Below, one piece after another: positions 16,369-33,072 of a DNA stretch of 50,617 nucleotides; position 1 is the stretch's first letter; each line of letters opens with the position of its first letter. The stretch comes from Candidatus Woesearchaeota archaeon (lineage in GTDB: Archaea; Nanobdellota; Nanobdellia; Woesearchaeales; WJKR01). Location of the stretch: assembly GCA_016927245.1 (NCBI GenBank), contig JAFGNA010000021.1, positions 1 through 50,617 on the forward strand, in the 5' to 3' direction. Made by a program: the position numbers and the translations under genes. The notes below the pieces were generated by a model, which saw nothing but the letters and a program-made list of their open reading frames with translations, was not told where the DNA came from and did not search any database.

Positions 16369-16375
16369 CTTAAAG
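16369..16375 (+). promoter_or_regulatory. TATA box for tRNA-Arg
   Basis: CTTAAAG centred about 28 nt upstream of the tRNA 5' end, placing the predicted TSS within 2 nt of the mature end. Confidence 0.5.
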
Positions 16376-16399: not shown

Positions 16400-16507
16400 G
16401 TCCCCGTGGTGTAGCCTGGTCGACGGAACAATATCCTTGTCCCGCCGAGGCACATAGCATTGTGGCTTGCGGAGCCATAGACCCGGGTTCGAATCCCGGC
16501 GGGGACA
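16400..16507 (+). tRNA. tRNA-Arg(GCG) with a 34-nt intron in the D-loop
   Basis: Acceptor GTCCCCG/CGGGGAC, D-stem GTGT/GCAT, anticodon stem GTGGC/GCCAT with loop TTGCGGA (anticodon GCG, Arg), T-arm CCGGG-TTCGAAT-CCCGG, discriminator A. The D-loop is interrupted at 16420-16453. Around that segment a canonical bulge-helix-bulge folds: central helix GCCT/AGGC, bulges GGT and ACA, and an inner hairpin of about 11 pairs with two A-C mismatches and loop TATCC. Cutting GG^T and AC^A joins GCCTGG to ATAGCAT, giving a normal 10-nt D-loop AGCCTGGATA as in other archaeal arginine tRNAs. Mature length 74 with the discriminator. Confidence 0.92.
16420..16453 (+). other. tRNA intron, BHB type, position 20/21
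   Basis: Thirty-four nucleotides beginning TCGACGG and ending GAGGCAC, bounded by the two 3-nt bulges of the BHB motif. A non-canonical location; most archaeal tRNA introns are at 37/38. Confidence 0.85.
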
Positions 16508-30275: not shown

Positions 30276-30276
30276 A

Positions 30277-30368
30277 GCCTCCGCCGAGATTTGAACTCGG
30301 GACCTGCTGCTTACGAGGCAGCCGCTGATGCCGCACGGAGAGCGCTCTGGCCGCTGAGCTACGGAGGC
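30277..30368 (-). tRNA. tRNA-Thr(CGT) with a ~20-nt insertion between D-arm and anticodon arm
   Basis: Minus strand: acceptor GCCTCCG/CGGAGGC, D-arm GCTC-AGCGGCCA-GAGC, anticodon arm GCTGC-CTCGTAA-GCAGC (anticodon CGT), variable AGGTC, T-arm CCGAG-TTCAAAT-CTCGG, discriminator base U as in archaeal tRNA-Thr. Between base 26 and the anticodon stem 20 extra nucleotides (CTCTCCGTGCGGCATCAGCG) are present. They are flanked by a direct repeat AGCG, so the exact boundaries slide by up to 4 nt. I read it as an intron at about 26/27, but a clean bulge-helix-bulge is not evident; CGCT/AGCG can pair. The TATA box at 30393-30401 predicts a TSS 3 nt upstream. Confidence 0.85.
30323..30342 (-). other. Probable non-canonical tRNA intron (position ~26/27)
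   Basis: Twenty nucleotides whose removal leaves a normal class I tRNA-Thr. Boundaries uncertain because AGCG is repeated at both ends. Confidence 0.6.
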
Positions 30369-32960: not shown

Positions 32961-33072
32961 GGGGCTGTGGGGTAACTTGGCTATCCTTTTCGGTTTGGGA
33001 CCCCTTCACGAGCCCCGAAGCCACGAAGGGGCAAAAAGCCGAATGATCCCGGTTCAAATCCGGGCAGCCCCA
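32961..33072 (+). tRNA. tRNA-Pro(TGG) with a 38-nt intron at 37/38
   Basis: Acceptor GGGGCTG/CAGCCCC, D-stem GGGT/ATCC, anticodon stem TTCGG/CCGAA, T-arm CCCGG-TTCAAAT-CCGGG, discriminator A. The anticodon loop is split after TTTGGG (anticodon TGG). The intron 33000-33037 forms a perfect bulge-helix-bulge: outer helix TTCGG/CCGAA, central helix TTTG/CAAA, bulges GGA and AAG, inner helix CCCCTTC/GAAGGGG. The 3' end is 25 nt from the eL43 start codon, so the tRNA probably leads a protein-coding operon. Confidence 0.93.
33000..33037 (+). other. tRNA-Pro intron, canonical BHB
   Basis: Thirty-eight nucleotides from ACCCCTTC to GGGGCAAAAA; cut positions GG^A and AA^G in the two bulges. Confidence 0.9.

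Follow-up and report, generated by a model that had tools for sequence, protein, structure and literature searches.

A bulge-helix-bulge intron in the D-loop of the only detected tRNA-Arg(GCG) gene of a Woesearchaeota genome

The archaeal tRNA introns that lie outside position 37/38 at bulge-helix-bulge (BHB) motifs of the EndA type are known from the Thermoproteales, Thaumarchaeota, Nanoarchaeum, ARMAN, Korarchaeum and some Asgard archaea. Sites reported for these non-canonical introns include 20/21, 22/23, 29/30 and 30/31 (PMC4090602), and a tally based on tRNAscan-SE 2.0 lists 673 of them in 217 archaeal genomes (PMC8450103). Archaeal endonucleases recognize the BHB regardless of the mature tRNA domain (PMC8707768), and the prevailing view in reviews associates (alpha beta)2 or epsilon2 enzymes with non-canonical introns and limits alpha4 enzymes to canonical BHBs and introns (PMC4033280, PMC4090602, PMC6379350). 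Our analysis confirms that the insert found in the D-loop of a woesearchaeal tRNA-Arg(GCG) is a genuine intron of this already known kind, and that it interrupts the only tRNA-Arg(GCG) detected in the genome, the one serving CGC and CGU codons.

The window, that is, the whole stretch of 50,617 nucleotides under analysis, is one contig (C9) of an assembly of 24 contigs and 1.11 Mb that is rated 100% complete. Every conserved position and every stem of the tRNA are intact in the two exons (Table 1), and 18 nt of the 5' exon, CCCCGTGGTGTAGCCTGG, are identical in the sister species. In standard numbering the D-loop reads A14, G15, C16, C17, T17a, G18 and G19 ahead of the insert and A20, T20a and A21 behind it, so that the 3' exon begins with A20, an arginine identity base. 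The original prediction had put the insert between positions 20 and 21; the 34 nt are indeed there, following the 20th exon nucleotide by linear count, but in standard tRNA numbering the site is 19/20.

Table 1. Features of the tRNA-Arg(GCG) locus and other intron-bearing tRNA genes of the genome (positions refer to the window unless a locus is named)
Feature	Position	Strand	Remarks
TATA-like stretch CTTAAAG, candidate	16369..16375	+	about 25-31 nt upstream of tRNA-Arg(GCG); by eye
tRNA-Arg(GCG) gene, intron-bearing	16400-16507	+	sequence reading
tRNA-Arg(GCG) 5' exon	16400..16419	+	acceptor GTCCCCG, TG, D-stem GTGT, D-loop AGCCTGG
BHB central helix, 5' strand GCCT	16414..16417	+	conserved D-loop nucleotides 15-17a
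5' bulge GGT	16418..16420	+	predicted cut GG^T
34-nt BHB intron TCGACGGAACAATATCCTTGTCCCGCCGAGGCAC	16420..16453	+	position 19/20, between G19 and A20
BHB central helix, 3' strand AGGC	16448..16451	+	near intron 3' end
3' bulge ACA	16452..16454	+	predicted cut AC^A
tRNA-Arg(GCG) 3' exon	16454..16507	+	ATA, D-stem GCAT, anticodon arm TTGCGGA (anticodon GCG)
tRNA-Arg(GCG) 3' exon (continued)	16454..16507	+	T-arm CCGGG-TTCGAAT-CCCGG, acceptor CGGGGAC, A73; CCA not encoded
Thr(CGT)	30276..30368	-	20-nt D-stem intron at 22/23; relaxed BHB, 3/4 central pairs
tRNA-Pro(TGG), comparison case	32961..33072	+	38-nt canonical 37/38 intron, strict central helix
Arg(CCT), two introns	L030 1501-1618	-	D-loop 20a/21, 21 nt; 37/38, 22 nt
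Lys(TTT), D-arm intron			site 19/20
Thr(GGT), D-arm intron			site 20/21
Val(CAC), D-arm intron			site 20a/21
Gln(CTG), D-arm intron			site 21/22
Leu(CAG), D-arm intron			site 21/22; 3/4 central pairs (relaxed)
Lys(CTT), D-arm intron			site 22/23

The BHB-type motif predicted for this D-loop is borne out, with GCCT facing AGGC, the bulges GGT and ACA, and an inner helix, CGACGGAACAA/TTGTCCCGCCG, of 11 positions with two A-C mismatches. It lies at the exon-intron borders, and both predicted cuts fall inside the 3-nt bulges. Its description as a perfect, standard BHB is only partly apt. Set against the strict hBHBh' criterion (a 4-bp central helix, two 3-nt bulges and flanking helices longer than 2 bp), the central helix and the bulges conform, but the inner helix has its two mismatches, the outer helix comprises just 2 bp (A-U, U-A), and imposing the BHB costs, at best, 4.1 kcal/mol relative to the minimum free energy (MFE) fold, in which both bulges are paired. 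The notion that the BHB is the thermodynamic fold was rejected on the strength of that gap. The gap is nonetheless not disqualifying, since the BHBs of the genome's 37/38 introns lie 1.6-10.3 kcal/mol above their own MFE folds and those of its remaining D-arm introns 0-4.0 kcal/mol above. As to chance, a strict 4-bp central helix by itself turns up often (about 20%), given the flexible placements; a BHB of equal score that also leaves a good mature tRNA was obtained from 4 of 3000 shuffled inserts and from 6 of 3000 random 34-mers taken from the window.

Unspliced, the gene scores 23.1 bits in Rfam, under the cut-off of 29 bits, and ARAGORN places its start within the insert, at 16432; with the insert removed, ARAGORN reports a 74-nt tRNA-Arg(gcg). 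This recovery of a standard tRNA upon removal of an insert outside 37/38 is what is expected of an archaeal non-canonical intron. The restored D-loop, AGCCTGGATA, also occurs in the intact Arg(TCT) of this genome and in the uninterrupted Arg(GCG) of many relatives, in keeping with the anticipated resemblance to arginine tRNAs. The second, intact tRNA-Arg(GCG) that had been named as a counterargument did not appear: an Arg(GCG) 3'-half pattern searched genome-wide gave one match only. The gene is very likely needed, since an assembly rated 100% complete yielded no second copy and five neighbouring genes use CGC more often than any other Arg codon; it is probably single-copy and essential and, judging by its sequence, its intron is probably functional.

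The same 3'-half pattern, which genes with a 37/38 intron escape, was run over the 288 genomes of the order. Among the parsable Arg(GCG) genes, 45/52 are uninterrupted and 7/52 carry a D-loop insert, proportions that are not a frequency for all genomes because of the genes the pattern misses. The seven inserts sit at 19/20 or 20a/21 and are spread over six families, and their distribution across the order is patchy. One family (f64) has a 26-nt insert in one genome and none in two others, and in one genus (g19) the insert of one congener is absent from the other. In the sister species, the one further genome in the genus of the window, the same loop holds a 30-nt insert of unrelated sequence, between conserved exons that share 18 identical flanking bases with those of the window; this insert is placed, with less certainty, at 20a/21, with 3/4 central pairs.

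D-loop introns, which the original prediction had called uncommon, are plentiful in this genome, where at least nine tRNAs, Arg(GCG) included, carry an intron in the D-arm (Table 1) and further non-canonical introns occur at 29/30 and 30/31. Once spliced, all nine D-arm cases yield the expected tRNA in ARAGORN, and several of the restored D-arms match intact isoacceptors (e.g. Gln(CTG) and Gln(TTG)). Over all parsed introns, four central pairs are found in 10/12 non-canonical and 5/14 canonical introns (Fisher p = 0.02), a difference to be taken as no more than suggestive, since the BHB was partly optimised during placement and several genes (Ser and others) are outside the count. Transposition of introns between the tRNAs of this genome was rejected, the best pairwise similarity (12) being equal to the maximum of the shuffled sets (9-12). 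Several other observations concern the annotation of tRNA genes. ARAGORN labels the Thr(CGT) gene of the window as His(GTG), the true His(GTG) being located elsewhere (L010). A tRNA-Ile (L014 1501-1609) has anticodon TAT after removal of a 37/38 intron, as opposed to the usual CAT-type Ile2, and would read AUA directly. A Ser(CGA)-like sequence (L017, about 1830-1925) has a T-arm with no matching 3' T-stem after it and may be another disrupted tRNA or a degenerate copy. An identical Leu(GAG) tRNA is found in the first bases of L027 and L028, at the ends of contigs C6 and C7, and therefore represents a single gene at a break in the assembly.

PF01974, PF02778 and a six-sequence profile identify a single EndA gene in the genome. 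Its product, of 214 aa and alpha type, bears the catalytic triad Y150, H160, K191 and, judged by alignment with METJA, a METJA-like L10 stretch, DDEGDV; it also has a poorly conserved N-terminal extension of about 50 aa that is absent from METJA. No CSL or ASL loop insertion relative to METJA is seen near the active site in the alignment. The search for a heterotetrameric or epsilon-type EndA, as the prediction had advised, thus led to one alpha-type gene: PF01974, PF02778 and profile A1 gave no further match at E <= 10, a threshold that a very divergent second subunit could escape, and no three-unit chain of the epsilon2 type (about 390 aa) was found. The EndA proteins of relatives resemble that of the window genome, and an RtcB gene is present. 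One genome of the order (G036) has two full-length EndA copies (L232, L233), both with the catalytic triad, and also bears an Arg(GCG) D-loop intron. From its sequence, the EndA described here is probably an alpha4 homotetramer.

The prediction that a D-loop intron requires an endonuclease of broad specificity does not hold up, because a strict BHB is recognised independently of the tRNA body (PMC8707768) and only an alpha-type EndA was found. The reported restriction of alpha4 enzymes to canonical substrates concerns the form of the motif, and an alpha-type EndA should cut a strict BHB at any tRNA position. The introns that would be difficult for an alpha4 enzyme are the relaxed ones of Thr(CGT) and Leu(CAG). 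We propose, with considerable confidence, that the gene is a functional, single-copy tRNA-Arg(GCG) whose BHB intron at 19/20 is removed by the lone EndA and RtcB, as one case of a D-arm hotspot. In the transcript, G15-C16-C17-T17a would pair with AGGC at the 3' end of the intron, a pairing evident in the sequence and presumed to form in the cell, and GGU and ACA would be left as two 3-nt bulges. The single EndA, probably as an alpha4 homotetramer, would cut GG^U and AC^A, and RtcB would join the exons into the D-loop AGCCTGGATA, to which the 3' exon contributes A20 as its first base. Strict BHB geometry, as opposed to a broad-specificity endonuclease, is probably what permits removal away from the anticodon. 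Against this explanation stand the MFE fold with its paired bulges, the 3/4 central pairs of Thr(CGT) and Leu(CAG) and the limit ascribed to alpha4 enzymes (PMC4033280).

The rival that shares most with this proposal accepts a genuine D-loop intron and assigns it to a broad-specificity cutter, either an (alpha beta)2 enzyme with an undetected subunit or an alpha4 enzyme whose N-terminal extension broadens its range. The closest PDB match of the EndA in phmmer is 3iey_A, the catalytic subunit of the N. equitans heterotetramer, and both the relaxed central helices of two D-arm introns and the extension missing from METJA lend themselves to this reading. We nevertheless regard it as rather unlikely, for each of the three profiles retrieves one EndA, the L10 stretch kept by this protein is present in METJA and lacking in NEQ205, no insertion occupies the expected place of the CSL, and the extension is weakly conserved.

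The remaining alternatives dispense with a functional intron and are far less plausible. A decaying pseudogene holding an inserted fragment, with CGY codons read by another tRNA, would agree with the Rfam score of the unspliced gene, but was rejected as highly improbable in view of the intact stems and conserved positions, the single match for Arg(GCG), the relatives that retain the exons with other inserts or none, and the nine cases within the same genome. A somewhat slimmer chance attaches to an intron-less gene starting at 16432, as in the ARAGORN output, for which the TTGTCCC of the insert, partly mimicking the acceptor strand, would serve as alternative 5' acceptor strand; such a gene lacks the D-loop signature (A14, G18-G19, A21) and was rejected, the signature being present in the upstream exon, which is conserved both in the sister species and in the order at large. 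Least credible of all is an assembly or binning artefact: the window is one contig among the 24 of its assembly, but inserts in the same loop recur in the sister species and in five other families, and the TFIIB gene of the contig is 99% identical to an independent Candidatus Woesearchaeota record.

More generally, and leaning only slightly in its favour, we suggest that the D-arm of woesearchaeal tRNAs is a hotspot in which the conserved D-loop motifs AGCCTGG and AGCGG act as ready BHB halves, introns are repeatedly gained or replaced, and an alpha4-type EndA removes them with no broad-specificity loop. If true, such removal would depart from the accepted co-evolution that links non-canonical introns to (alpha beta)2 or epsilon2 endonucleases. 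The lineage offers a natural test of whether such introns need a broad-specificity endonuclease or just a strict BHB. D-loop introns occur often in this large, uncultured DPANN lineage, in which standard tools overlook or mislabel tRNA genes, and their patchy presence in the same loop, with congeners differing, makes intron gain and replacement traceable.

In the literature searched, no earlier report of such introns for this Woesearchaeota lineage was found. Like the non-canonical introns of the archaeal groups named at the outset, those described here have an EndA-type BHB outside 37/38; unlike them, they reside in a Woesearchaeota host, cluster in the 3' half of the D-arm and coexist with a single alpha-type EndA devoid of CSL or ASL. 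The nanoarchaeote Nst1 is similar in that the catalytic EndA subunit alone has been identified, but only two intron-containing tRNAs were reported there (PMC3655853). Nanoarchaeum equitans, a DPANN relative that also has unusual tRNA genes, provides through the catalytic subunit of its (alpha beta)2 EndA (3iey) the nearest PDB sequence; its NEQ205, however, is without the L10 residues and has a 6-residue insertion between Y and H, in contrast to the EndA of the window genome, where PF01974, PF02778 and the profile found no beta subunit. The alpha4 EndA of Methanocaldococcus jannaschii (1a79) shares with the present enzyme a single gene, the Y/H/K triad, the L10 stretch and the absence of CSL and ASL, and differs in having no N-terminal extension of about 50 aa; the abundance of D-arm introns alongside an enzyme of this type is unexpected from the reviews (PMC4033280). 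The kind of intron is thus known; new are its occurrence in this lineage, the D-arm hotspot and the combination of that hotspot with an alpha4-like EndA.
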